Shown one piece after another: positions 3 to 13,691 of a stretch of DNA of 64,000 bases; within the stretch, counting starts at the first letter, position 1; each line of letters opens with the position of its first letter. The position numbers and the translations under genes are program-made. Under the pieces are notes generated by a model. The model worked only from the letters and a program-made list of their open reading frames with translations. It was not told the origin of the DNA and made no database searches. Source of the DNA: Puia sp. (lineage in GTDB: Bacteria; Bacteroidota; Bacteroidia; Chitinophagales; Chitinophagaceae); NCBI GenBank assembly GCA_031292515.1, contig JARLGZ010000177.1, forward strand, positions 124,001-188,000, given 5' to 3'.

Positions 3-1304
3 GCCAATTCCGACAACGGCTGCATCGGCATCATCGCCTGGATGCATACCTTCTCCCCGGCCAAAATGTGGATCGGGGGTCTCAAGGCATTGCAAAAACC
101 GCTGGCACACCTCCACACCCAATTCAATCGTGATATTCCCTGGAATACCATCGACATGGACTTTATGAACCTCAACCAAAGCGCTCATGGAGACCGGGAA
201 TTCGGTTTCCTTATGAGCCGTATGAGGCTGAACCGAAAGGTGATCGTCGGTCATTGGCAGGACCCGGAAGTCCGGGACAGGCTCAACGTATGGACAAGGG
301 CCGCGGCGGCCTGGCATGACTGGCAAAATGCCCGCTTTGTTCGTTTTGGAGACAATATGCGACAGGTGGCCGTAACGGAAGGGGACAAGGTGGAGGCCGA
401 ACTGACCTTCGGCTATTCGGTCAATACGCATGGCATTGGCGACCTCGTCAGGACCATCGGCGAAGTCAGCGATGCCGCCGTCGACAGGTTGACGGAAGAA
501 TACGACGACCTCTACACCCTGGCAGAGCCCCTGCGCAAAGGAAAAGCCGGCCGCGTCTCCCTGCGGGAAGACGCCAGGATAGAACTCGGCCTGCGCGCCT
601 TCCTCGAAAACGGTCGCTTCAAAGGCTTTACCGATACCTTCGAAGACCTTCACGGGATGACCCAGTTACCGGGGATCGCCGCACAACGCCTGATGAACAG
701 CGGCTACGGGTTTGCGGGGGAAGGGGACTGGAAGACCGCCGCACTCGTGCGGGCTATGAAAGTCATGGGCGGCGGACTACCGGGAGGCAACTCCTTCATG
801 GAAGATTACACCTACCACCTCGCCCCCGATAACCCGCTCGTCCTGGGCGCCCATATGCTGGAAATCTGCGAATCGATCGCCGCCGGCAGACCTTCCTGCG
901 AGATCCATCCGCTCGGTATCGGCGGTAAAGCCGATCCGGTACGACTGGTATTTAACGCGGGTGGCGGACCTGCCCTCAATGCATCCCTCGTTGACATGGG
1001 CAATCGCTTCCGGCTGCTGGTAAATGAGGTCCTGGCCGTCGCCCCCGAACAACCTCTACCCAGGCTTCCTGTCGCACGCGTTCTATGGAAACCGCTGCCG
1101 GATATGAAGACCGCCTGCGCAGCGTGGATCCTGGCGGGCGGGGCTCACCATACCTGTTACAGCCAAAACCTGACGACCGAACACCTGCGGGATTTTGCAG
1201 ATATCGCCGGGGTTGAATATGCCCTGATAGACAGGACCACAGATTTATATCGATTCCGTAATGAACTTCGATGGAATGAAGTATATTACCAGCTCAATAA
1301 ATAA
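3..1304 (+). CDS. araA: L-arabinose isomerase (5' end outside window)
   Basis: Converts L-arabinose to L-ribulose in the cytoplasm, the first step of arabinose catabolism. The reading frame is open from the window edge. 433 residues are present against about 500 for the family, so roughly the first 65 are missing. Recognisable AraA segments are [31 protein letters not shown] (the region with metal-binding Glu and His) and the GAHHTCYS motif near the C-terminus with the conserved His pair. It is followed 63 bp later by a sodium/sugar symporter and then an AraR-like regulator, which is a classic Bacteroidetes arabinose operon order. The upstream ara genes are presumably outside the window. The assignment is secure. 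Confidence 0.95.
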
Positions 1305-1315
1305 ACCCGGAAAAA

Positions 1316-1354
1316 TTGCTATAAATAGCAAGAATAGTCTAAATAAGAGTCTAA
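1316..1354 (+). promoter_or_regulatory. Inverted and direct repeats between araA and the symporter gene
   Basis: TTGCTATAAATAGCAA at 1316-1331 is a perfect inverted repeat (6-bp arms, TAAA centre). It is followed by AGTCTAA at 1336-1342 and again at 1348-1354, 12 bp apart. The site sits just upstream of the symporter start, in an operon that also encodes an AraR-like repressor. An AraR operator is therefore a reasonable guess, but a small RNA hairpin at the gene junction is equally possible. Confidence 0.35.
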
Positions 1355-1367
1355 TAAGCGTTTGCGT

Positions 1368-3062
1368 ATGAATAAGAACCTGGCCCCGACAGATTACTTC
1401 GTCTTCATCATTTATTTCATCATCGTAGCCTTCTACGGTTACTGGATCTACCAAAGAAAGAAAAAAGCCGTCATCGATACAAAAGACTTCTTCCTCGCAG
1501 AAGGATCCTTAACCTGGTGGGCCATAGGCACCTCCCTGATTGCGTCGAATATTTCGGCCGAACAAATGATTGGCATGAGCGGCTCGGGCTTCCGGCTGGG
1601 CCTGGCGATCTCTACGTATGAATGGATGGCGGCAGCATCCCTGGTGATCGTGGCCGTCTTTTTTATTCCCGTTTACCTGAAGAACAAGATCTATACCATG
1701 CCGCAGTTCCTCAGCCAGCGCTACAATGGCACGGTCGCCATGATCATGGCGATCTTCTGGCTGGCTTTGTACATTGTCGTGAACCTGATGTCGATCCTAT
1801 ACCTGGGCTCTCTTGCCATCAGTGGCATGACCGGAATCAGTATTTACACCTGCATCGTGCTGCTCGCCGTCTTCTCCGTTTTCATCACGCTCGGCGGGAT
1901 GAAGGTTATCGGCTACACCGATGTCATCCAGGTTTTTTTCCTGATCCTGGGAGGGCTCGTAGCCACCTATATCGCGTTACACCTGGTCGCGGAGAAATCC
2001 GGCCAGTCAGGGCTGCTGAACGGGTTTAAATTGCTGACCACGGAAGCCGGCGACCATTTCCATATGATTTTCAAAAAGGACAATCCCAACTATGTCAGTC
2101 TCCCGGGTCTGACGGTGCTCATAGGAGGAATGTGGATCACAAACCTCAACTATTGGGGATGCAATCAATATATCACACAACGCGCGCTGGGAGCCAACCT
2201 CACCACAGCCAGGAGCGGCATCCTCTTTGCCGCATTCCTGAAATTGCTGATGCCGGTGATTGTCGTGCTGCCGGGTATTGCTGCCTATGTCCTTTATCAA
2301 AAAGGGATGTTCCATACGGAAATGCTGAGCTCAAGCGGTGTAGTGGATGTAAACAAAGCCTATCCGAACCTGCTGAGCCTGCTGCCGGCCGGATTAAAAG
2401 GACTTGCATTTGCCGCGCTGACGGCGGCCATCGTGGCTTCCCTCGCCGGAAAGGCCAATAGTATCGCAACCATCTTCACACTGGACATCTACAAAAAAGC
2501 CATTAACCGGGACGCCGGTGAAAAAAAGATGGTAGGAGTGGGTAAGATTACCGTAGTCGTATCTATGCTCCTTGCCATCATTATGTCCCTGATCATCGGC
2601 GAAAAACTGATGGGAGAAGGGAAACAAGGCTTTAACTATATCCAGGAGTATACCGGTTTCTTCTCACCCGGGATCTTCGCGATGTTCCTATTGGGGTTTT
2701 TCTGGAAACGGACCACCTCGAACGCAGCCCTGTTCGCTACCATTGGCGGCTTTGTCCTCTCCTGCGTGCTGAAATTCCTTCCCCAATGGGTCGATCTGAG
2801 TTTCCTGACCCCTTACGGCTTTTATCAACCAAACAATGATAATCACGGCATTTACGAGATCCCTTTTCTCGATAGAATGGGATTCGTCTTCCTCTTCTGT
2901 ATCATAGGAATGGCCATCATCAATTTCGTCGAAAACAAGAGGGGCGTAAAAACCAAGGGTCTGGAAGTGGACCGCAGCATGTTCAGGGTGTCCGGCAGCT
3001 TTGCTACGGGTGCGCTGGTCATCTGCGCATTACTCACAATCCTGTATACCGTTTTCTGGTAG
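1368..3062 (+). CDS. SSS-family sodium/sugar symporter (probable arabinose uptake)
   Basis: A polytopic inner-membrane protein of the solute:sodium symporter family, 564 residues. It has about 14 hydrophobic segments starting with one at roughly residues 8-25. SGLT-like signatures are visible: ASNISAEQMIGMSGSGF, the GGMKVIGYTDVIQVFFL segment and NYWGCNQYITQRALGA, which is typical of sugar transporters of the family. The frame can be extended to a TTG at 1362, but the ATG at 1368 is the better start. Position between araA and an AraR-like regulator suggests L-arabinose as substrate. That is inference from context, since SSS proteins vary in substrate. Confidence 0.88.
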   Translation: MNKNLAPTDYFVFIIYFIIVAFYGYWIYQRKKKAVIDTKDFFLAEGSLTWWAIGTSLIASNISAEQMIGMSGSGFRLGLAISTYEWMAAASLVIVAVFFIPVYLKNKIYTMPQFLSQRYNGTVAMIMAIFWLALYIVVNLMSILYLGSLAISGMTGISIYTCIVLLAVFSVFITLGGMKVIGYTDVIQVFFLILGGLVATYIALHLVAEKSGQSGLLNGFKLLTTEAGDHFHMIFKKDNPNYVSLPGLTVLIGGMWITNLNYWGCNQYITQRALGANLTTARSGILFAAFLKLLMPVIVVLPGIAAYVLYQKGMFHTEMLSSSGVVDVNKAYPNLLSLLPAGLKGLAFAALTAAIVASLAGKANSIATIFTLDIYKKAINRDAGEKKMVGVGKITVVVSMLLAIIMSLIIGEKLMGEGKQGFNYIQEYTGFFSPGIFAMFLLGFFWKRTTSNAALFATIGGFVLSCVLKFLPQWVDLSFLTPYGFYQPNNDNHGIYEIPFLDRMGFVFLFCIIGMAIINFVENKRGVKTKGLEVDRSMFRVSGSFATGALVICALLTILYTVFW

Positions 3063-3118
3063 CCTTTTGCAATACCCTTCCCGGAGCGTGGCTCATTTAA
3101 AAATATAATAAGCAGACT

Positions 3119-3826
3119 ATGATTCGTTATTCGGGACAAAGCCGCCTCCTGATCGCCATCGATTGCATCATTTTTGGATTTGACGGGCACGATATAAAAC
3201 TGCTCCTGATACAACGCGGGCTGAGACCCGAAAAAGGGAAATGGAGTCTGATGGGCGGTTTTCTTGAGCCCGCGGAAAGTCTCGATGATGCAGCCAGCCG
3301 GATACTAAAAAAATTGACGGGTCTGGAAGGCGTATACCTCGAACAGTTGCATGCTTTTGGAGATCCCTTGCGCGACCCGGTGGAGAGGACCATCAGCGTC
3401 GCCTATTTCGCCCTGGTGGATATCCACCGGTACGAGAAACAACTCAGCACCGAATACCATGCGGAATGGTTCCTGCTGAAAGAATTGCCCGAACTGATAT
3501 TTGATCACACCACAATGGTTCGGATGGCCAGGAGGGAACTCCGCTACAAGGCGGCCCTCCATCCCATACTCTTCGAACTCCTCCCGCAAAGGTTTACGAT
3601 CCCCCAGCTGCAAATTCTCTATGAAGGGATCTATGACACTACCTTCGATAATCGCAACTTCAGCCGCAAAGTCCTCTCGACCGGACTGCTGATCAAGCAG
3701 AAAGAAAAAGACAAGGCCAATTCAAAGAAGGGAGCCTTTTATTACAAGCTGGACAAACGAAAGTACAAAGCCAATTTCCAGGCCTTTCTCAACTTCATCC
3801 CGAACCCGGACAAACTGCTCTTGTAA
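3119..3826 (+). CDS. araR: Nudix-related transcriptional regulator, AraR/NrtR type
   Basis: 235 residues with an N-terminal Nudix-fold domain (about 5-150) and a C-terminal winged-helix DNA-binding domain (about 155-225). The Nudix box region starting GGFLEPAESLDDAASR has lost the catalytic REx2EE pattern, reading RILKK instead. Hydrolase activity is therefore unlikely and the domain probably works as an effector sensor. In Bacteroidetes, AraR of this architecture binds L-arabinose and represses arabinose genes. The location directly after araA and the symporter matches. The gene starts 56 bp after the symporter stop and is probably in the same operon. The family call is strong; the specific AraR name rests on context. 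Confidence 0.85.
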   Translation: MIRYSGQSRLLIAIDCIIFGFDGHDIKLLLIQRGLRPEKGKWSLMGGFLEPAESLDDAASRILKKLTGLEGVYLEQLHAFGDPLRDPVERTISVAYFALVDIHRYEKQLSTEYHAEWFLLKELPELIFDHTTMVRMARRELRYKAALHPILFELLPQRFTIPQLQILYEGIYDTTFDNRNFSRKVLSTGLLIKQKEKDKANSKKGAFYYKLDKRKYKANFQAFLNFIPNPDKLLL

Positions 3827-3914: not shown

Positions 3915-5279
3915 TCAGCCCCTTATATGATAGGCCTTCGGGTGGACAAAAGCACGAATCCCCTGGTAGGACAAGGTGGAACCCAACCCGGAATGCTTTC
4001 TACCCGACCAGGGCAGGGAAGCGCTCACCCGGTCGCAGCAATTCCAATATACGGTCCCGGTATTGATCTTATTCATGATCCGCTCCGCCCTCTCATAATT
4101 CGCCGAATAAACAGCCGCCGTCAAACCATATTCGGTGTCCGCAAGCAAAGCCAGGGCTTCCGCATCGTCCTTCACTTTCTGTATGCCGATGACCGGGCCA
4201 AATGATTCCTCCGTCATCAGCTTCATCGAATGATTGACATTGACCAGCACCGCCGGTTCCATAAAATAACCTTTCCTGTCCAGCTTTTTGCCCCCCGCCA
4301 AAAGGACAGCCCCCTTCGCTATGGCGTCCTCGACCTGTGATAAGAGGAAGTCCAATTGCGGCTGCCGGCTCAAAGGACCGATTTCAGTCGCGGGGTCCAA
4401 CGGATCTCCGATCACCATCTTCTTCGCCTGCCGGACATACGACTCGACAAAACGATCGTAGATCTTTTCATGCACATAAATCCTTTCCACGGCACAGCAG
4501 CTCTGGCCGTTATTGTACACGACCCCTTCCAGTGCCGCCGCCGCCACCTGATCCAGGTTCTCCACATCTTCCATGACATATAACGGGTCTTTTCCGCCCA
4601 GTTCCAACTGGCAAGGCACCAGTTGAGCAGCTACCTTCTCCGCAATATACCGGCCGGTCCGATAGCTGCCGGTAAAGAAATAGCCGTTTAAGGGCAGTTT
4701 CAACAGGCATTCGCCCACATTACCCTTGCCCAGGACTATCTGGAAACAATCTTCGGGTACCCCGGACTGATAAAGCAGCCGCTGGATATGTATACCTGTC
4801 AGCGCCGAATATTCCGATGGCTTATAGAATACGGCATTCCCCCCGATCAGCGCGGGGATGAATACATTTACCCCCACGAGGTAGGGGTAGTTCCAGGCCG
4901 AAATATTAGCGATGATGCCCAACGGCTCATAACGGATCTTCTCGCGGGTAGCCCCTTCCGCTGTAACCCACTCATCGGAGAGATACCTGGCTGAATTATC
5001 GAGGAAATATTTTATGCGTGCCCGTGCGCCATTGAGCTCATTATAAGATTGCTGCAGCGGTTTACCCATTTCCCCGGTCAGCGTAAGAGCCAGGTCATCC
5101 TTCTGTTCGTCCAGCAATGCATAAAATCTTGCGATGCAGGCGATCCTCTTGTCCACGGACAATGAAGCCCAGACAGGCTGTCCCTTTTTTAGCAACTGAT
5201 ATTTCTGGTCGATGGTTTCCGCATTATCTTCGGCTATCTCCCGGATCACTTCTTCGGTAGCAGGATTAATAATTATCAT
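3915..5279 (-). CDS. NAD(P)-dependent aldehyde dehydrogenase (PuuC-like step)
   Basis: 454 residues, a compact member of the ALDH superfamily. Visible features are the cofactor-fold motif GSYRTG (about 204-209), the general-base glutamate in ELGGK (Glu226) and the nucleophilic cysteine in NNGQSC (Cys261). It is the last gene of a minus-strand operon with a glutamine-synthetase homologue, an iron alcohol dehydrogenase and a gamma-glutamyl hydrolase. The likely reaction is oxidation of a gamma-glutamylated amino aldehyde to the acid. By sequence alone it resembles succinate-semialdehyde-type dehydrogenases, so the physiological substrate is inferred from neighbours. The gene is separated from the hydrolase gene by a 177-bp purine-rich spacer. 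Confidence 0.85.
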   Translation of the reverse strand: MIIINPATEEVIREIAEDNAETIDQKYQLLKKGQPVWASLSVDKRIACIARFYALLDEQKDDLALTLTGEMGKPLQQSYNELNGARARIKYFLDNSARYLSDEWVTAEGATREKIRYEPLGIIANISAWNYPYLVGVNVFIPALIGGNAVFYKPSEYSALTGIHIQRLLYQSGVPEDCFQIVLGKGNVGECLLKLPLNGYFFTGSYRTGRYIAEKVAAQLVPCQLELGGKDPLYVMEDVENLDQVAAAALEGVVYNNGQSCCAVERIYVHEKIYDRFVESYVRQAKKMVIGDPLDPATEIGPLSRQPQLDFLLSQVEDAIAKGAVLLAGGKKLDRKGYFMEPAVLVNVNHSMKLMTEESFGPVIGIQKVKDDAEALALLADTEYGLTAAVYSANYERAERIMNKINTGTVYWNCCDRVSASLPWSGRKHSGLGSTLSYQGIRAFVHPKAYHIRG

Positions 5280-5456
5280 TTCGTCTCTTTTATTTTTTCA
5301 CAGTTCTTTTTACTTTTTCATCCCTCCTCCATTCATGTCCATTCGCCTCATTTTCCCTCACCGCTGGTATTCGCAACGTCTCCATTCGTTTCGTTCGTGT
5401 TGTACTTTTCGCATCCATTTTTCACAACCGCCTTTCGCGTCCGCTTTTTGCGTTCC

Positions 5457-6224
5457 TCACTTTTCACGTTTATTGGCGCTTCCAAGTACTTCTTCAATAT
5501 ACCGGTCACGGATCGACCGGTACAAAAAAGAATCCGCAAACCCGTTGATAAACATCCTCTCCGGATGCCATTGCACCGCAACCATGAATGGCTTCCCTCC
5601 CGGAGCCTCCCATTCGATCCCCTCAATCGTCCCATCCTCTGCCCTGCTGTTGACGACCAGCCCCTCTCCCAGCCGGTCAATGGCCTGGTGATGCGCACTG
5701 TTGGCAATGCCCTTCGGAGTCCCTGCAATGGATGACAATAGAGTCCCCGCTTCAATCAGCACGGGATGACGTTTGTCTTCTTTTACGTTTTCATGTATGG
5801 CATCTCCCTGCTCACCCAGGTCCTGCACCAGGCTGCCACGAAGACAAACATTGATCAGCTGTAACCCCCGGCAAACACCCAATACCGGCAGACCGCGCTC
5901 CCGGGCAAATTCAAAAAGAGACTTTTCAAAAAGGTCACGTCCCTTCTCCCAGCCATCAGCCGGCGCCTTTATATAGACAGGACTGCCTCCATACAGGTCA
6001 GGATGAATATCGACACCACCGGACAAGACCAATCCATCGCACCGGCGGATCTCTTCAAAGTTATCATCCTCAACCGAAAACCTGATTACTTCGATCTCCG
6101 CTCCACGACCCGCTTCTCCGGTTCCGCCGGTCTCCCCTCCCTGCCTTGCGACAGTTCCCTTTATCCAGTCCACATAGTTCTGGTGTTTGGCCGGTGATCC
6201 GGTATAAGTCAATCCTATTTTCAT
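5457..6224 (-). CDS. Gamma-glutamyl hydrolase, class I glutamine amidotransferase-like (PuuD family)
   Basis: 255 residues of the peptidase C26 family that includes E. coli PuuD. The catalytic triad is visible: the nucleophile in LGVCRGLQ (Cys118), and His220 and Glu222 in QWHPE. In the Puu pathway this enzyme releases glutamate from gamma-glutamyl-GABA. Here it probably removes the glutamyl group from the oxidised product (for example gamma-glutamylglycine) at the end of the route. A short insertion rich in Gly and Glu lies near residues 28-42. It lies 89 bp downstream of the alcohol dehydrogenase gene on the same strand. Confidence 0.87.
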   Translation of the reverse strand: MKIGLTYTGSPAKHQNYVDWIKGTVARQGGETGGTGEAGRGAEIEVIRFSVEDDNFEEIRRCDGLVLSGGVDIHPDLYGGSPVYIKAPADGWEKGRDLFEKSLFEFARERGLPVLGVCRGLQLINVCLRGSLVQDLGEQGDAIHENVKEDKRHPVLIEAGTLLSSIAGTPKGIANSAHHQAIDRLGEGLVVNSRAEDGTIEGIEWEAPGGKPFMVAVQWHPERMFINGFADSFLYRSIRDRYIEEVLGSANKREK

Positions 6225-6313
6225 GTCCTGATCGATCTTTTCTTTTATAAGGTCTCTTTACCGCCTCTTCCGCTACAAATCCCCGCAGCGAATCCTCTTC
6301 TACGGGATCCCAT

Positions 6314-7465
6314 CTACATCGCCTCTTCGTACAATCCTTTAAAATCTTCCCGGCTGACAGGCCGCGGATTACTGGGATGACAGAAATCCGCCAGCGCAAG
6401 ATCCGAAAGCGTTTCTATATGTTCCTTCTTTACCCCGATATCGCGCAGACGCAACGGAATATTCAACTCCCCGTTCAGGCGTGTCAGGCGTTCGACAACG
6501 GCCTCTCCTCTTTCATCCTTCAAATCCATCACCCTGGCGATCTTCCTGAACTTGTCTTCGCTGCCCGGGATATTGAATTGCATGCCATAGGGCAGATTGA
6601 CTGCATTGGCAAGCCCGTGATGGGTATCCAGCAGCGAGGACAAAGGATGCGCCAGCGAATGGACTACGCCCAGTCCTTTTTGAAAAGCCACCGCCCCCAT
6701 CAGTGAGGCGATCATCATCTTACTCCGCGTCTCCAGGTCCGGCTTTTTCACGGCGCCTGCAATGGCTTCGTTGATAAGTGCAATCCCTTCCAACGCGATC
6801 CCTTCGCACATCGGATGAAACCCCTTGGCCACAAACGCTTCCAGGTTGTGCGTGAGAGCGTCCATTCCCGTAGCGGCCGTCACGAAAGGCGGCAGGTCCA
6901 TCGTCAGCAAAGGATCGGCAAATACGATCTTTGCCAGCAGTTTCGGCGAAAACAAGATCCTCTTCCTGTGCGTGTCATCCTCCGATATGATGGCACTCCG
7001 ACCCACTTCGCTACCCGTGCCGCTCGTCGTGGGAACGGTTATAAAATAAGGCACTTCTTCGGTCACATACTTGTCGCCGCCGATCAGATCGTCATAATCG
7101 AACAGATCGCGGTGGTGATGAATCCGAAGCACGACGGCCCTCGCCACATCCATCGCCGCGCCCCCGCCAATCCCGATGACACTGTCCCTTCCGGTGGCTC
7201 TAAACAGGTCCCCGCCCTTCAGCACATCTGACTTTACCGGGTTCTTATGAATGTCGGAAAAGACTTCCACGGACATCCCGGCGGTCTGTAAAGATTTCTT
7301 TATCTCCTTCAAAAAACCCAACTGGGCTACCACGGGGTCCGTAACGATTAATGGCTTGCTAAATCCTGCAGAAGCCAGGTGAGCGGGCAGTTCCCTGATG
7401 GCGCCGGCCCCGAACCGGATGATCGTTGGAAAATTGTACTGTCTGATGGTATTAAAATCTGTCAT
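6314..7465 (-). CDS. Iron-containing alcohol dehydrogenase (group III)
   Basis: 383 residues when started at the ATG at 7465. A longer frame back to 7570 adds 35 low-complexity Lys/Arg-rich residues and is not convincing. Visible features are the nucleotide-binding GIGGGAAMD (about 98-106) and the metal ligands Asp202 and His206 in MDALTH, His269 and His283, with the spacing of FucO-type enzymes. The Puu pathway uses an FAD oxidase at this step. An alcohol dehydrogenase instead suggests the gamma-glutamylated substrate carries a hydroxyl, as for ethanolamine, so the product would be the aldehyde for the neighbouring ALDH. The reaction is inferred from the operon. Confidence 0.88.
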   Translation of the reverse strand: MTDFNTIRQYNFPTIIRFGAGAIRELPAHLASAGFSKPLIVTDPVVAQLGFLKEIKKSLQTAGMSVEVFSDIHKNPVKSDVLKGGDLFRATGRDSVIGIGGGAAMDVARAVVLRIHHHRDLFDYDDLIGGDKYVTEEVPYFITVPTTSGTGSEVGRSAIISEDDTHRKRILFSPKLLAKIVFADPLLTMDLPPFVTAATGMDALTHNLEAFVAKGFHPMCEGIALEGIALINEAIAGAVKKPDLETRSKMMIASLMGAVAFQKGLGVVHSLAHPLSSLLDTHHGLANAVNLPYGMQFNIPGSEDKFRKIARVMDLKDERGEAVVERLTRLNGELNIPLRLRDIGVKKEHIETLSDLALADFCHPSNPRPVSREDFKGLYEEAM

Positions 7466-7635
7466 ATCCTTCTTTTCTTTTGTCGTTTTGTTCTTTTGTC
7501 GGTTGCTCTTCTTTCTGGCCGCAGCGCCCTGCCGACGAGATGAAAGTCCGCTGAGCATAGTAGCCGACACCCTCGTTGCTCAGTCAGTTTCGTTCTGCAG
7601 CCAGTTTCGTCCTGCGGTTCTTCTTTTAGCCTGTG

Positions 7636-9006
7636 TTATATAATCTCCAGGTATCGCTTCAGTTCCCAGTCGGTGACTACTTTGGAGAACTGCCTCCACT
7701 CCCATTCCCGGGTACCCGTAAAATGGTCGACAAAGCCCTCTCCGAAAAGCTCCCTGGCGACGGCGGATTCTTTCATCGCCTGTGTCGCTTTCCAGAGGTT
7801 TCCCGGCAGGATCCCATTGGTTTTGTTCGCGTATCCGCTTCCGATAGTAGCAGCCGTCTCCAGCTTCAACCCTTTTTGGATCCCATAGAGACCACTGGCC
7901 AGGCAACCGGCCATGGCCAGGTAGGGATTGGAATCGGAACCCACGACCCTCGTCTCCAGACGGGTAGACCCCGCGCCCCCGGGGAGCGCCCGTAAGGCCG
8001 TGGTACGGTTGTCGATGGCCCAGGTCAGCGTGGTAGGCGCCCAGGCGCCTTCAACCAGCCGTTTGTAGCTGTTGACGGTCGGCGCAAACATCGGGAGAAT
8101 AAAAGGCAGACAGTGCAGCTGCCCGGCAATATAGCTCTCCATCATGCTGCTCAGCCCGGTTTTGGATTTCTTGTCGTAGAAAAGATTCTGCTTTCCGTCC
8201 GCCGACCAGAGGCTCTGATGGACATGACCGCTGCAACCCGGCAGGTTCTCGTTGAATTTAGCCATAAAACTGGCGATGATCCCATGCCGGTGCGCAATCT
8301 CTTTGACGCCCGCCTTGAACAGCACCGCCCGATCAGCTGCTTCGAGGGCCTCGGAATAGAGGATGGCCGCTTCGTATACTCCCGGCCCTGTCTCCGTATG
8401 TATTCCTTCCAGGGGAACGCCAAATTTATTCAGCAGGTCGAAAAGATCATGAAAAAATGCACTCCCCTGCGACGCCCTCAACACGGAATAACCGAACATC
8501 CCATTCGTGATCGGTTTCAATCCGCGAAAAGAATTCTGATAGAGTTCATCGACATTGTTGACGAAATTGAACCACTCGAACTCCTGTGAGAAAAAAGGGA
8601 GGTAGCCCGCGCGGGATGCCCGGCCGATGACTTTTTTCAAAAGCCCCCGCGGACAGATCGGCAGGTCCTCTTTTCCCTCTTCCCTGAAATCAGCCAGGAA
8701 AAAGGGAAGATCCTTCTCCCAGGGTATCTGCCGGTATGTGTCGATATCCACGACGGCCTGTGCATCGGGATACCCCGTATGCCAACCGGTAATTTTTGCG
8801 TTGTCATAGGCCTGGTCGGCGGCATCCCATCCAAATACAACGTCGCAAAATCCAAAACCCTTCTCCACGACGGATTTGAACTTCTCGAAACTGATAACCT
8901 TACCACGCAGCACGCCGTCGATATCCGTGACGGCCAGCTTCACTTTGCCAGTCTCCCGTTCCGTCAGTTGTTGTAAAAGTTCAGGAATTGATTGTTTTTT
9001 CTGCAT
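7636..9006 (-). CDS. Glutamine synthetase-like gamma-glutamylamine ligase (PuuA/GlnA4 type)
   Basis: 456 residues of the type I glutamine synthetase fold. Conserved elements are SGHVHQSLW (ATP/metal region), NSYKRLVEGAWAPT and DNRTTALRA, then ETRVVGSDSNPYLA. The WAPT...DNRTTA pattern and the SEALEAADRAVLFK segment are like PuuA and the gamma-glutamylpolyamine or gamma-glutamylethanolamide synthetases, not housekeeping GlnA. The reaction would be ATP-dependent ligation of glutamate to a primary amine. The start lies inside the end of the permease gene (26-bp overlap), so uptake and glutamylation are translationally linked. Ethanolamine is the favoured amine because of the permease type and the alcohol dehydrogenase. 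Putrescine is less likely, since no PuuB oxidase is present. Confidence 0.87.
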   Translation of the reverse strand: MQKKQSIPELLQQLTERETGKVKLAVTDIDGVLRGKVISFEKFKSVVEKGFGFCDVVFGWDAADQAYDNAKITGWHTGYPDAQAVVDIDTYRQIPWEKDLPFFLADFREEGKEDLPICPRGLLKKVIGRASRAGYLPFFSQEFEWFNFVNNVDELYQNSFRGLKPITNGMFGYSVLRASQGSAFFHDLFDLLNKFGVPLEGIHTETGPGVYEAAILYSEALEAADRAVLFKAGVKEIAHRHGIIASFMAKFNENLPGCSGHVHQSLWSADGKQNLFYDKKSKTGLSSMMESYIAGQLHCLPFILPMFAPTVNSYKRLVEGAWAPTTLTWAIDNRTTALRALPGGAGSTRLETRVVGSDSNPYLAMAGCLASGLYGIQKGLKLETAATIGSGYANKTNGILPGNLWKATQAMKESAVARELFGEGFVDHFTGTREWEWRQFSKVVTDWELKRYLEII

Positions 9007-10396
9007 CAGGAGTTCTTTTAACGAAAAAATGAAACCAAATATAGGACAGTGCCAGTATCGAAAAATAAATAACGGCCAATTTTATGTTCAGCGTGACCAT
9101 CGCGATCAGGGAAATAGCCGCTATGGTCAGGGCCACCAAAGGAAACCAGGGATAGAAAGGCACCCGGAAAGGCCTTGCAAGAGCCGGCTCTCTCCTTCTG
9201 AGCGTCAGCACCGTGATCATCGAAAGGATATAAAGGGTGATTGCGCCAAAAACGGAGATCGTGATGATCTGATCTGTCTTACCGGAAAGCAACGCGATGA
9301 TCCCGATCACCATATTCACCACCAACGCATTGGCGGGTGTCTTAAAGCGGGTATGTATCTTCCCGAAAACGCCGGGTATGTAGCGCACGCGCCCGAATTC
9401 ATAGGTAGCCCTGCTGGCCGCCAGGATGATCCCGTGAAAAGAAGCCACCAGCCCCATCAGCCCGATGGTGATCAGCAGATGATAGACCAGCGTTCCCGTC
9501 CCCGCTATTTTAGACAGAGCCAGCGGAAGAGGGGAGTCGGATGGTGGAGCTCCCAGCGAAGGATAAACGATGGCTTCCCACCCCCCGACACCTATAGATG
9601 AAATAAATACCAACACACAGAGCAGTACGAGAGTTGCCAACGCCGACCCGAAACCCAGCAGTACGTTCCGCTGGGGGTTCACGGTCTCTTCCGCAACGTT
9701 GGCCACCCCTTCCAGTCCCAGGAAGAACCAGATCGCAAACGGTATGGAAGCCCAAACGCCTCTCCATCCAAAAGGGAACGCGTTTTCCCGCAGGTGCTGC
9801 ATACTGAAATGCGGGAGGGTGATCCCCGAAAACAACAACAACTCGAATACCGCCAGCACGGTCACGATGAGCTCAAAGACCGCCGCCGCCTTCACCCCAT
9901 AAATATTCAGACAGGTAAACAGAAGATAAGCCGTGATCGCAATTCCCTGCACGCTGAATCCAGGAAAAAATATATGAAAATAAGCCCCTATTGCGGCTGC
10001 AATAGCCGGAGGCGCGAAAAGGAATTCTATCAGCTGGGCCATACCCGCAATAAAACCGAATTCCCGGTTCAATCCCCTGTTCGCATAATCAAAAACGCCC
10101 CCCGCTTTCGGTATGGCGCAGGCCAGCTCTGTATAAGAGAAAGTGAAGGTGATATACATGATAATGATGACACCCGTGGCGATCGCCAGGCCCAGTGTAC
10201 CGCCCTCCGCCAGGCCGAGGTTCCAGCCAAAGTACATTCCCGAGATTACATAGCCTACTCCCAATCCCCATAACATCACCGGACCCAGCGTACGGGATAG
10301 ATGAGCCCCTTCTGAAGCGTCTTTGGACGAACGGGCTTGTCCGGGATCTTGCTGATGAACATTCCCGGGAGCAGAAGGACGGGTTGGAGGGGGCAT
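8981..10396 (-). CDS. APC-family amino acid/ethanolamine permease
   Basis: 471 residues with about 12 membrane segments, starting at the ATG at 10396; a longer frame begins with a weak TTG at 10414. The first membrane region, LGVGYVISGMYFGWNLGLA, and the segment AQLIEFLFAPPAIAAAIG closely resemble the Eat-type ethanolamine permeases (TIGR00908 family). Eat permeases are H+-linked inner-membrane importers. It is the first gene of the operon and overlaps the gamma-glutamyl ligase gene by 26 bp. The permease type is the main argument for ethanolamine, rather than putrescine, as the substrate. Other small amines or amino alcohols remain possible. Confidence 0.83.
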   Translation of the reverse strand: MPPPTRPSAPGNVHQQDPGQARSSKDASEGAHLSRTLGPVMLWGLGVGYVISGMYFGWNLGLAEGGTLGLAIATGVIIIMYITFTFSYTELACAIPKAGGVFDYANRGLNREFGFIAGMAQLIEFLFAPPAIAAAIGAYFHIFFPGFSVQGIAITAYLLFTCLNIYGVKAAAVFELIVTVLAVFELLLFSGITLPHFSMQHLRENAFPFGWRGVWASIPFAIWFFLGLEGVANVAEETVNPQRNVLLGFGSALATLVLLCVLVFISSIGVGGWEAIVYPSLGAPPSDSPLPLALSKIAGTGTLVYHLLITIGLMGLVASFHGIILAASRATYEFGRVRYIPGVFGKIHTRFKTPANALVVNMVIGIIALLSGKTDQIITISVFGAITLYILSMITVLTLRRREPALARPFRVPFYPWFPLVALTIAAISLIAMVTLNIKLAVIYFSILALSYIWFHFFVKRTPDAEKTINS

Positions 10397-10400
10397 ACCA

Positions 10401-10415
10401 ATTGATTTAATCAAT
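10401..10415 (-). promoter_or_regulatory. Perfect palindrome just upstream of the permease start
   Basis: ATTGATTTAATCAAT is a perfect inverted repeat with 7-bp arms, 5-19 nt before the ATG at 10396. Further ATTGAT/ATCAAT half-sites occur at 10447-10452 and 10482-10487 in the same AT-rich 144-bp leader. This looks like an operator region for the catabolic operon; the regulator is unknown. No regulator gene lies directly beside the operon other than the degenerate LytS-like gene upstream. Confidence 0.35.
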
Positions 10416-10540: not shown

Positions 10541-11641
10541 TTATCCCAGTTTAATGGCATTATGAAGGTTGATCTTGCAATCGATCAGGAATTGTGCCGT
10601 CGTGATAAAGACCTTTAGTTCATGACTCTCCGGATAGAGCAGGTCGAGGCGGTTACCGATATGTTGCAGGAAGATATTTCCCCCGTTTGCCAGGGTGGAG
10701 GTATCAATGGGTTTACTCCAGGCTACCTGGAGGTTCAGGGAGCCACTTAATATATGAATGTCGATCCGAAGATATTTATCGGGGAGGTCCAGCAAAGAGA
10801 GCTGCCTGAAACTATTCTCCACAAGAGGTAACAGGATGAACGGAGCGATCTGCTCACCCGAAGGATCGCCCGTGCGTTTGAGCAGGATCCTTGGCCTGTC
10901 CGGGCTGCCCATCTCCTCCAACTCCAGGTATTCTTCCAGCAACCTCAGTTCTTTTTCCAGGCTTACACTAGCCTGGTTATGATCATAGATCACATACAAA
11001 AGCAGGTTCTTGATTTTTTTTATCATAGCCGGGATAACATGCGACTCCCTGACAGACAACATTTCCACCCTATCCAGGGCATTGACCAGGAAGACGGATT
11101 GCAACTGTCCGTCATGTCTGCCCCGCTCCAGCTTCTGTTTCTCCGCCTTTATCAAATCCAGCTCCCGTTGCTTGATAAACCAAAGCTTCCCCAATTTGAT
11201 CGCTGCCGCCAGTCCCCCTTCCATATTGATCTGGTAAAATAAGTTCAGAAAAGCCCAGGACCAGTTTTTTGATAGTTCGACCGGCGGCATGCCCGTCATC
11301 TTCCGTATAACCGGGATCACATAGACGGTATAAGATTGGAAAGCGATGATGAACAACACGCTGAACAACAGCCATAACAAGGTCATCCGGATATAACGAC
11401 CGGTGAAAAGAAATTTTGGCAACAGGAAATAAATAATAGAATAACAAAAGATCATATCCAGGGGCGTTGAAAAAAAGACCTCGGGAAGGATGGAGAAGAA
11501 ACTTCTGACAAAAGGGAATTTACTGCTCCAGTAGAGAGCTCCGAAACTGGTATAGTAGATGATCCACAAACCCCAAAATAAGGAATGCCTGGCAACCCGA
11601 TAGCGGGGGTTGTTGGAAAATATCAATGGATAAACGGTCAT
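10541..11641 (-). CDS. LytS-like membrane protein with a degenerate histidine kinase core
   Basis: 366 residues from the ATG at 11641 (a GTG at 11677 would add 12). There are four hydrophobic segments in the first 160 residues, then a short coiled region and a LytS/YehU-type kinase region. The phospho-acceptor motif, normally NPHFLFN, reads SVFLVN here, so the histidine is gone. The N-box region ILLPLVENSFRQL is partly kept. The protein therefore looks like a pseudokinase rather than an active sensor kinase. It is transcribed away from an intact LytS/LytTR pair starting 218 bp upstream and may modulate that system. It could also be a decaying gene, though the frame is open throughout. Confidence 0.7.
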   Translation of the reverse strand: MTVYPLIFSNNPRYRVARHSLFWGLWIIYYTSFGALYWSSKFPFVRSFFSILPEVFFSTPLDMIFCYSIIYFLLPKFLFTGRYIRMTLLWLLFSVLFIIAFQSYTVYVIPVIRKMTGMPPVELSKNWSWAFLNLFYQINMEGGLAAAIKLGKLWFIKQRELDLIKAEKQKLERGRHDGQLQSVFLVNALDRVEMLSVRESHVIPAMIKKIKNLLLYVIYDHNQASVSLEKELRLLEEYLELEEMGSPDRPRILLKRTGDPSGEQIAPFILLPLVENSFRQLSLLDLPDKYLRIDIHILSGSLNLQVAWSKPIDTSTLANGGNIFLQHIGNRLDLLYPESHELKVFITTAQFLIDCKINLHNAIKLG

Positions 11642-11858
11642 CGGGACAAAAGTAGGAAAGCAGGTGGTAGAAACCACCCGCGGGTCACATGAGAAAAATA
11701 GAAACTCTTGATATTTTGATCACTCATACCTTCCGTTCACAATAAATTAACTTTTCTATGACAGGTGAAATTGGGTAATTGCGGCATCTATCTTCGCATA
11801 GATTCCCTCAAACACGAAAAATCATTACCGAAACGGCATTTCGCTAACCCAAACTGCT

Positions 11859-12893
11859 ATGGACAATCAACAGATCGTCGATGATAGGATGGTTAAATCG
11901 ATAGTCATCCCGGTTTTAGGGATCACCATTCCTAATCTGGCAGGGCTGATTACCAACTCGCAATATGGCCCATCGGAGCTCCTGGCCAGCTATGCTTTTT
12001 TTATCCTGACAGCCTGGATGATTTGGCAGGGGAACGTACGATTGATGTATTTTATGAGGAAGAAGATCAGGTGGTCTTATAAATACTATTACCGGATCAT
12101 CGTCTCTTTGTTCCTTGCAAACATCGTATATTCAGGTACAGTCTCCGGTCTTCTGCTCAGCGGATGGAGGCGTTTCTCCAGGGAAAACCAGCCGGGCAAC
12201 AGCCCCATCGTCAGCACCGTTCTGATCATTATTATCGCGGCCTGCTTCATCACCAATATTTACGAGATCCTGTTTCTCAACCAGGAGAGAGAATACAACC
12301 AATCACGGGTGGACCAGTTGAACATCGCAAAAGCACAAGCCGAATTGGAAGCTCTGAAAAACCAGATCGATCCGCATTTCATCTTCAACTCCCTGAATAC
12401 CCTCTCCTTTCTCATCACCCGGGATCCGCCAAGCGCAAGGCTATACAATGATACACTCGCAAAAGTCTACCGGTACATTCTAAGCAATAAGGAAAAAGAC
12501 CTGGTATTGCTCAGAGAGGAAATAGAATTTATCAGCAACTATTTCTACCTGCTCAAAATCCGTTTTGGCGATGCCGTCAGCATGGTCATAGAGATCACAG
12601 ACTTCCTGGCCGAAGACTTCCTGATACCTCCGATATCCATGCAAGCACTGGTGGAAAACGCGATCAAACATAACGAGTTCAACGACAAAGGCCCCCTTAC
12701 GATCAACGTGGCCATCTCATCGAACTATGTGATTGTGAAAAATGCCATCAACCCGAAAAGCTTCCCTGCGACGGGATCGAGAATAGGCCTGGGCAACCTG
12801 GATAACCGATACAAGTTGATAACGAGACGGAACATCCTGATAGAGGACAACTCAAAGACTTTTATGGTCAAACTGCCCGTCATAAAATTTTAG
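11859..12893 (+). CDS. LytS/YehU-family sensor histidine kinase
   Basis: 344 residues with four predicted membrane segments (about 14-32, 42-58, 78-101 and 117-140), a short coiled region, then the His-kinase domain. The phospho-acceptor His173 lies in QIDPHFIFNSLNTL and the ATP-binding N-box in SMQALVENAIKHNEF. It is a membrane sensor that phosphorylates the LytTR regulator encoded 42 bp downstream. The ligand is unknown. The catalytic residues are intact, in contrast to the divergent LytS-like gene next door. Confidence 0.9.
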   Translation: MDNQQIVDDRMVKSIVIPVLGITIPNLAGLITNSQYGPSELLASYAFFILTAWMIWQGNVRLMYFMRKKIRWSYKYYYRIIVSLFLANIVYSGTVSGLLLSGWRRFSRENQPGNSPIVSTVLIIIIAACFITNIYEILFLNQEREYNQSRVDQLNIAKAQAELEALKNQIDPHFIFNSLNTLSFLITRDPPSARLYNDTLAKVYRYILSNKEKDLVLLREEIEFISNYFYLLKIRFGDAVSMVIEITDFLAEDFLIPPISMQALVENAIKHNEFNDKGPLTINVAISSNYVIVKNAINPKSFPATGSRIGLGNLDNRYKLITRRNILIEDNSKTFMVKLPVIKF

Positions 12894-12935
12894 TTATAAA
12901 TTTTATAAACTATTCTGGTTTAAAACCTATACGCC

Positions 12936-13691
12936 ATGAGAGTATTGATTATCGAAGATGAAAAGCCGGCCTATGAGAACCTGGCCGGTGAATTGCTCGC
13001 GATCGATCACAGCATTTCCGTCATCGCCGGCTGCGACAGCGTGCAGGAATGCATCCGCTGGCTCAACAGGAATCCGCAGCCCGATCTCATCATGATGGAT
13101 ATCCAGCTGTCGGACGGTCTCTCCTTTAACATATTCGGCGCCTGCTCCATCACCTGCCCGGTGATCTTTACGACCGCCTATGACAAATACCTGACGCAGG
13201 CCTTCGAATACAGCAGCATTGATTACCTGCTCAAACCGATCAACCCGGAGAAGCTGAAAAATGCGATAAAAAAATACAAAAACTTACAGAACCATTTCGT
13301 GAATAATCACGCCTCGCTGCTGGAATTCCTGAACAATCACGACAAAAAGAAATCCCGGATCCTCGTGAAAAAGGGAATAGAATACCAAACAGTCCGGGTA
13401 GAAGACATCGCCTATTTCTTTACAGAACACAAGCTTGTCTTCCTCGTGGACAAGGAAAACCGGAAATATCTCGCCGAGAAGAACAACCTGGGGGAACTGG
13501 AAGAAGAGCTCGACAGAAACCTTTTTTACCGCGCCAACCGGAAATTCATCATCAACGCCAATTATGTCAGGCGGTTTAAGCCGCTGGAACGCAGCAAAAT
13601 CTCGGTGGAACTCGCCCTCCCGGCTAACGAGGAAATCATTATCAGCCAGGAGAATGCGGCCTCTTTCAAAAAATGGATGGGCGACTGCTAA
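12936..13691 (+). CDS. LytTR-type response regulator
   Basis: 251 residues: a receiver domain (about 1-120) with acidic residues in IIEDE, the phospho-acceptor Asp55 in MMDIQLSDG and the KPI switch lysine. It is followed by a LytTR DNA-binding domain (about 140-248) containing NRKFIINANYVRRFKP. It is the cytoplasmic partner of the LytS-type kinase just upstream, and the two genes form an operon. Targets cannot be read from the sequence. Confidence 0.92.
   Translation: MRVLIIEDEKPAYENLAGELLAIDHSISVIAGCDSVQECIRWLNRNPQPDLIMMDIQLSDGLSFNIFGACSITCPVIFTTAYDKYLTQAFEYSSIDYLLKPINPEKLKNAIKKYKNLQNHFVNNHASLLEFLNNHDKKKSRILVKKGIEYQTVRVEDIAYFFTEHKLVFLVDKENRKYLAEKNNLGELEEELDRNLFYRANRKFIINANYVRRFKPLERSKISVELALPANEEIIISQENAASFKKWMGDC

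Follow-up and report, generated by a model that had tools for sequence, protein, structure and literature searches.

Routes that handle ethanolamine as a gamma-glutamyl derivative have been described from marine Proteobacteria and from Streptomyces. The products of one operon become more abundant when Phaeobacter sp. MED193 uses phosphorylethanolamine: a ligase, two dehydrogenases, an amidohydrolase for gamma-glutamylglycine and a TRAP binding protein for ethanolamine. The authors regard these genes as close relatives of the ones demonstrated in Chromohalobacter salexigens and Agrobacterium tumefaciens (PMC10132767). Ethanolamine binding by Csal_0678 of C. salexigens has also been cited (PMC4646407). 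For GlnA4 of Streptomyces coelicolor, synthesis of gamma-glutamylethanolamide is proven, the later steps of its pathway being predicted (PMC6529630). A review contains no word starting with 'Bacteroid' (PMC9397018), and the literature searched, which covers few subscription papers, yielded no account of this route from the Bacteroidota. A five-gene cluster of this kind has now been analyzed in Puia sp. (Bacteroidota, family Chitinophagaceae), in a stretch of 64,000 nucleotides referred to as the window (positions 124,001 to 188,000 of contig JARLGZ010000177.1, assembly GCA_031292515.1). The cluster very probably serves some amino alcohol, and this substrate is probably ethanolamine, degraded via gamma-glutamylation. 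A first-pass annotation of the same DNA had called such an operon little described in Bacteroidetes, which applies to the phylum, for which no paper was found, but not to the chain of reactions, published as a whole for Phaeobacter and cited there as demonstrated for Chromohalobacter and Agrobacterium. The chemistry is already known; new are the Bacteroidota operon and its combination with another ligase lineage and other partner genes.

The cluster spans positions 3915-10396 of the window, entirely on the minus strand. In the order of transcription it encodes an APC permease, a glutamine synthetase (GS)-like ligase, an iron-containing alcohol dehydrogenase (Fe-ADH), a hydrolase of the Peptidase C26 family (PuuD-like) and an aldehyde dehydrogenase (ALDH):

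8981-10396, minus strand, ATG start: Eat-type APC permease (AA_permease_2; TIGR00908, 'ethanolamine permease')
7636-9006, minus strand: GS-like gamma-glutamyl amine ligase (PF00120, Gln-synt_C; residues and tree)
6314-7465, minus strand, ATG start: Fe-ADH (PF00465/PF25137), proposed gamma-glutamylethanolamide dehydrogenase
5457-6224, minus strand: PuuD-like hydrolase of the class-I amidotransferase fold (PF07722, Peptidase C26, 151 bits), proposed gamma-glutamylglycine hydrolase
3915-5279, minus strand: ALDH (PF00171, Aldedh, 425 bits), proposed gamma-glutamylaminoacetaldehyde dehydrogenase

The gene order and the 26-bp overlap reported by the first-pass annotation are borne out, with exactly matching coordinates and with families confirmed by profile search. 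Ligase and permease share exactly 26 bases (8981-9006), the remaining intergenic gaps measure 170, 89 and 177 bases, and co-transcription of the five genes is likely. Promoter-like sites (10, versus 7.9 in shuffled sequences) and terminator-like sites (9 versus 9.3) occur at about the shuffled level. Alternative upstream starts are a GTG for the Fe-ADH, which would then begin at 7570, and a TTG at 10414 for the permease. The permease scores 434.5 bits against TIGR00908, above the curated cut-off of 381.75, and the next-best place listed in the genome reaches 104 bits; for the four enzymes, no NCBIfam model exceeds its cut-off among the matches listed, the list for the ALDH comprising the top 25 of 43. 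The Fe-ADH holds the motifs DALTH, AHPL and THHG, which we take to be metal ligands, and presumed catalytic motifs are present in the C26 hydrolase (Cys118 and His220-Pro-Glu) and in the ALDH (Cys261 and Glu226). The cluster comprises the gene set of this functional kind, namely ligase, alcohol dehydrogenase (ADH), ALDH and amidohydrolase, together with an importer recognized by family membership.

From the gene content, the conserved order, the protein families, their residues and the linkage of Eat, to the exclusion of EutB, in the sampled family genomes, we infer the substrate, every reaction and the co-transcription. Ethanolamine would be imported by Eat and joined to glutamate by the ligase, with ATP, giving gamma-glutamylethanolamide, whose hydroxyl would be oxidized to an aldehyde by the Fe-ADH. 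The ALDH would convert this aldehyde to gamma-glutamylglycine, which the C26 hydrolase would split into glycine and glutamate. Such a route would be cytosolic, with the glutamyl group as a reusable handle and nitrogen gained as glycine, and it would need no microcompartment because neither free acetaldehyde nor ammonia would be made.

The EtoX-type clusters of Phaeobacter, C. salexigens and A. tumefaciens resemble the window cluster in combining a ligase, two dehydrogenases, an amidohydrolase and a dedicated importer with the same proposed intermediates (PMC10132767). The EtoX-type layout of Ruegeria sp. B32 likewise includes an Fe-ADH, to which that of the window is 37% identical; the ALDHs share 37% identity over 411 residues. 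The differences concern the importer (TRAP in the EtoX type, Eat in the window), the hydrolase (annotated as N-formylglutamate amidohydrolase in Ruegeria, C26 in the window), an RpiR regulator present in the Ruegeria cluster, and the ligase, which belongs to another clade and is 35% identical to that of the window. The GlnA4 pathway of S. coelicolor shares gamma-glutamylethanolamide as first intermediate, a final gene of the glutamine-amidotransferase type and, in some species, a permease annotated as ethanolamine/amino acid permease, but it has a short-chain dehydrogenase where the window has an Fe-ADH (PMC6529630). In the ligase tree, sequences from GlnA4-like contexts fall with the EtoX type and not with the window. 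The Ipu pathway possesses the nearest named ligase group, the same Trp at the position of GlnA Glu327 and an amidotransferase-type hydrolase; unlike the window cluster, it acts on isopropylamine, involves a P450 step and places hydrolysis before alcohol oxidation (PMC6776027). Both IpuC loci inspected carry a P450/ferredoxin system that is absent from the window cluster. The Puu pathway of Escherichia coli follows the same logic of ligase, oxidation, ALDH and hydrolase, the last being PuuD-like as in the window, whereas its amine oxidase PuuB has no clear counterpart in the window genome and its ligase PuuA is 28% identical to the window ligase. The short eut operon (Eat-EutBC) has the importer family in common with the cluster, members of which stand beside EutB in sister genomes; neither EutB nor EutC has a match in the window genome.

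This genome is 99% complete. EutB, EutC and the shell protein of bacterial microcompartments (PF00936) were all sought in it and not found, in searches that were positive in an E. coli control, which agrees with the earlier proposal of a route free of a Eut microcompartment. The E. coli PuuB query gave no match at E<=0.001 in a search run without a positive control, and the similarity of PuuB to 10 of 26 places of the DAO family in the genome is weak: the top-scoring match reaches 37 bits over 43 residues, and the longest covers 211 residues at 24% identity. The accompanying idea that an alcohol dehydrogenase takes the place held by PuuB in the Puu route is in keeping with an Fe-ADH in the cluster and no recognizable PuuB in the genome.

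Linkage of the permease provides the main evidence on the substrate. In 117 Chitinophagaceae genomes, 36 permeases exceed the TIGR00908 cut-off. Within a distance of 3 kb, 19 of them have the ligase as a neighbor, 16 have EutB and a single one has neither. The latter (L076, G072:C19:4832-6109) is followed downstream by an M28 peptidase. EutB occurs in 21 of the 117 genomes, in one of them as a fragment only. It is present in none of the 19 genomes with the operon, against 3.4 expected (hypergeometric p=0.016, kinship ignored), and in 3 of the 11 genomes whose ligase lies outside the operon. The Eat importer thus stands beside either degradation module, EutB or the ligase, and ethanolamine is the substrate proposed because Eat permeases link to one or the other. 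Of the dedication to ethanolamine or another amino alcohol put forward by the first-pass annotation, the genomic association is supported by these counts, while the substrate keeps the standing of a prediction. At a proteobacterial locus on a distant branch (L207), the ligase is likewise accompanied by an ALDH and an Fe-ADH, by a gene resembling amidotransferases and by an Eat that scores 587 bits.

The ligase keeps the residues of GlnA that we take to form the metal, ATP and glutamate sites, and carries Trp322 at the position of Glu327, presumably catalytic in GlnA (14 sequences aligned). The equivalent residue is Phe in the EtoX-type and GlnA4-context examples, Tyr in PuuA and Trp in IpuC. 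PF00120 matches two proteins of the window genome. One is the operon ligase; the other is a glutamine synthetase of type III, so that the operon ligase is not needed for glutamine. Glutamine synthesis by an ammonia ligase was rejected on account of the Trp322 replacement and of this separate enzyme.

The ancestry of the ligase was followed in a careful tree of 57 of 162 sequences, rooted on the long branch of PuuA; IpuC and PuuA are included in this phylogeny, and S. coelicolor GlnA4, which is not itself in the tree, is represented by ligases of GlnA4-like contexts. EtoX-type and GlnA4-context ligases form one clade (support 100/99). IpuC groups with the window subfamily at 100/95, as a branch neighboring that subfamily, which itself has 100/99. 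The ligases of Bacteroidota operons and those of a second gene arrangement, the cassette described below, come together at 100/99; the cassette ligases have 96/88 and the operon ligases 81/85, the latter enclosing metagenome-assembled genomes of a betaproteobacterium (L150) and of a member of the Bacteriovoracaceae (L162). Identity of the window ligase amounts to 39.7% with IpuC, 35.4% with the EtoX-type enzyme of Ruegeria and 28% with PuuA. At 794 bits, the Ruegeria ligase very closely matches PDB 5dm3, which we take to be the enzyme of the C. salexigens ethanolamine cluster. Descent from GlnA4/EtoX-type ligases was discarded, the tree placing the window ligase on the IpuC side, and the former label 'PuuA/GlnA4-like' has to give way to a subfamily adjoining IpuC and apart from the EtoX-type and GlnA4-like cluster ligases.

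The operon recurs across the family. At E<=1e-60 the ligase is present in 30 of the 117 genomes, at 31 places. The same four partners in the same order were seen at 19 of the 30 fetched loci (window excluded), 16 of them with all five genes and three (L040, L048, L053) cut by contig ends; this recurring gene order is more than chance. The four partner genes were not found at E<=1e-20 at 11 of the 30 loci. L061, counted as non-operon, has its ligase at a contig start with the downstream side cut, and a quick tree of 101 of the 162 sequences puts it in the operon branch. Genome G081 holds two operon copies (L037 and the truncated L040) with ligases 73% and 66% identical to that of the window, and in G090, which also holds L061, an Eat-like permease of 322 bits, below the cut-off, lies beside an ALDH 52% identical to that of the window (L077). 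For the whole phylum, 395 Bacteroidota genomes were searched at E<=1e-100 and 41 hold the ligase; of the 33 loci fetched outside the family, only L100 has the operon, in the same order. A scan of named loci covered the best 80 of at least 590 relatives, and a few of these loci belong to genomes already present in the other sets. All four partners were matched at 19, including Chitinophaga, Pedobacter, Sphingobacterium, Flavihumibacter, Aquirufa and the Burkholderiales locus L172. The remaining loci have ADH, hydrolase and ALDH but no match to Eat (11), ADH and ALDH without the full set of ADH, hydrolase and ALDH (22), ADH without ALDH, some being cut (10), the cassette (7) or none of these types (11).

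The cassette was found at 32 of the 33 phylum loci outside the family and consists of the ligase, an orphan gene of about 345 residues (kin) and a HAD-IIA phosphatase, in this order (lig-kin-had). We know of no description of it, no literature search having been aimed at it. The arrangement is seen at L101-L132, L153, L156, L157, L161, L163, L164 and L168 and, within the family, at L051 and L054-L060; among the 11 non-operon ligases of the family, kin is nearby in 9 and the phosphatase in 8. Kin gave no match in Pfam or NCBIfam (two proteins tried) or among PDB sequences (one tried), and its profile yielded one chance-level match against the PDB (E 0.66). Its AlphaFold model is weak (pLDDT 61), and the Foldseek hits to kinases of aminoglycosides and choline begin only at E 1.2e-3. 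Residues K60, D219, N224, D238 and D240 are invariant in 16 aligned sequences, a Lys, D....N, Asp pattern that we assume to be typical of APH/choline kinases; a kinase fold may be taken as a lead.

Between the operon ligases (42) and those of the cassette (47), the thresholds used reveal only one consistent difference, Val versus Ile at position 262; the aligned active-site residues are shared, so that the sequence gives no clue to specificity. Kin occurs in 16 of the 117 family genomes, 14 of which have the ligase. Four of the 19 operon genomes carry kin-had elsewhere, without the ligase beside it, compared with kin in 2 of 87 ligase-free genomes (one-sided p=0.009, kinship ignored), and the distribution suggests that kin may use the product of the ligase wherever the latter is encoded. 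At two of these four kin-had loci (L214, L215) the flanks are those of L059 (a membrane protein 33% identical, glnII, GS III) with the ligase alone missing; in both genomes the ligase is found in the ethanolamine operon instead. It is tentatively conceivable that Bacteroidota share an intermediate, ethanolamine or a close amino alcohol in gamma-glutamylated form, which the operon would burn and which the widespread lig-kin-had cassette would phosphorylate and dephosphorylate, itself or as its product, with one ligase able to serve both.

Several observations weigh against ethanolamine or against a uniform operon. The ligase-linked Eats form a branch of their own (SH-aLRT 92), apart from the eight EutB-linked ones compared, to which the window Eat is 42.5-47.1% identical; this separation and these identities make a shift of substrate conceivable. 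Eight permeases with a stop in the aligned stretch (L136, L037, L043, L048, L140, L141, L151, L138) were omitted from the permease tree. The permease of L172, at 368.5 bits, falls just below the TIGR00908 cut-off and is more distant in the tree. Two of the 16 full family operons have broken permeases, with two stops at L043 (G038) and a split gene with a stop at L046 (G045). Within the operon branch of the ligase, an Eat match is missing at L150 and L162, all four partners at L148 and L158 and the hydrolase at L159, and L138 has a permease without ADH; an ADH was not observed at L138, L148, L158 and L061 of that branch in the quick tree. The nearest named ligase family is IpuC, whose route starts from isopropylamine with gamma-glutamylalaninol as a later intermediate (PMC6776027). 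At four Burkholderiales loci (L169, L171, L179, L180), an importer of 2-aminoethylphosphonate (AEP) and a PhnW transaminase lie upstream of orthologous genes for ligase, ADH, hydrolase and ALDH, with both families over cut-off at L171; no literature on this association was found in the search. Other amino alcohols keep a share of the probability because of the separate Eat branch and of these AEP neighbors. The same chemistry acting on alaninol, 1-amino-2-propanol or 3-aminopropanol, with alanine or beta-alanine instead of glycine as product, would suit a ligase that adjoins IpuC in the tree and is closer in identity to it than to the EtoX type, as well as the gamma-glutamyl-L-alaninol intermediate of the Ipu route in P. 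aurescens (PMC6776027). Such a substrate is nevertheless unlikely, since the importer belongs to the ethanolamine-permease family, with members beside EutB in sister genomes, and no P450 or ferredoxin gene is among the five cluster genes.

It is improbable that the ligase serves mainly another pathway, such as lig-kin-had, and that the operon only recycles gamma-glutamyl amino alcohols: the single consistent difference between operon and cassette ligases and the excess of kin-had in operon genomes would fit, but the operon holds an importer and a full oxidation chain, and the window genome has no kin match. Use of putrescine or other polyamines, to which the PuuD-like hydrolase and the GS-like ligase could point, is very improbable. 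The Puu equivalogs stay far below their cut-offs (PuuA, NF045547, 199 of 650 bits; PuuC 239 of 850; PuuD 63 of 266), no clear PuuB-like oxidase was found in the window genome, and gamma-glutamylputrescine has no hydroxyl to offer to an alcohol dehydrogenase; the polyamine reading was dismissed on the model scores and the want of a clear PuuB. Just as little probability attaches to the breakdown of an amine derived from aminophosphonates, as might be read from the AEP importer and PhnW at the four Burkholderiales loci and from an annotated AEP transaminase upstream of a distant Rhizobium ligase (L064). A tblastn search with the four AEP genes of L171 finds none of them at the Bacteroidota operon loci, apart from a single 32% match to the ABC ATPase at L034 and L134, two labels of the same contig. 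Ethanolamine, degraded through its gamma-glutamyl derivative, is retained as the probable substrate.

Next to the operon, at 42-3826, the window holds a sugar-type cluster with an isomerase (L-arabinose isomerase-like, judged by eye), a sodium/solute symporter and a regulator of the NUDIX type that scores below its model's cut-off. On the upstream side of the operon, 10541-13691 encodes a LytTR response regulator along with two histidine kinases (PF06580). Symporter and NUDIX genes flank the operon in G035 too, where the first PF06580 histidine kinase also adjoins it.

If the ethanolamine assignment is true, Bacteroidota such as Chitinophaga and Pedobacter would join marine Proteobacteria and Streptomyces as users of ethanolamine without a microcompartment, and the same chemistry would have been assembled more than once, from different ligase lineages and hydrolases. 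The Eat importer would then act as a module beside either EutBC or the ligase. The shared ligase makes the lig-kin-had cassette testable, as the identification of one substrate would constrain both systems. Should the tentative idea of a shared intermediate also be true, a further lineage of ethanolamine ligases, apart from GlnA4/EtoX, would feed a novel pathway in these bacteria.

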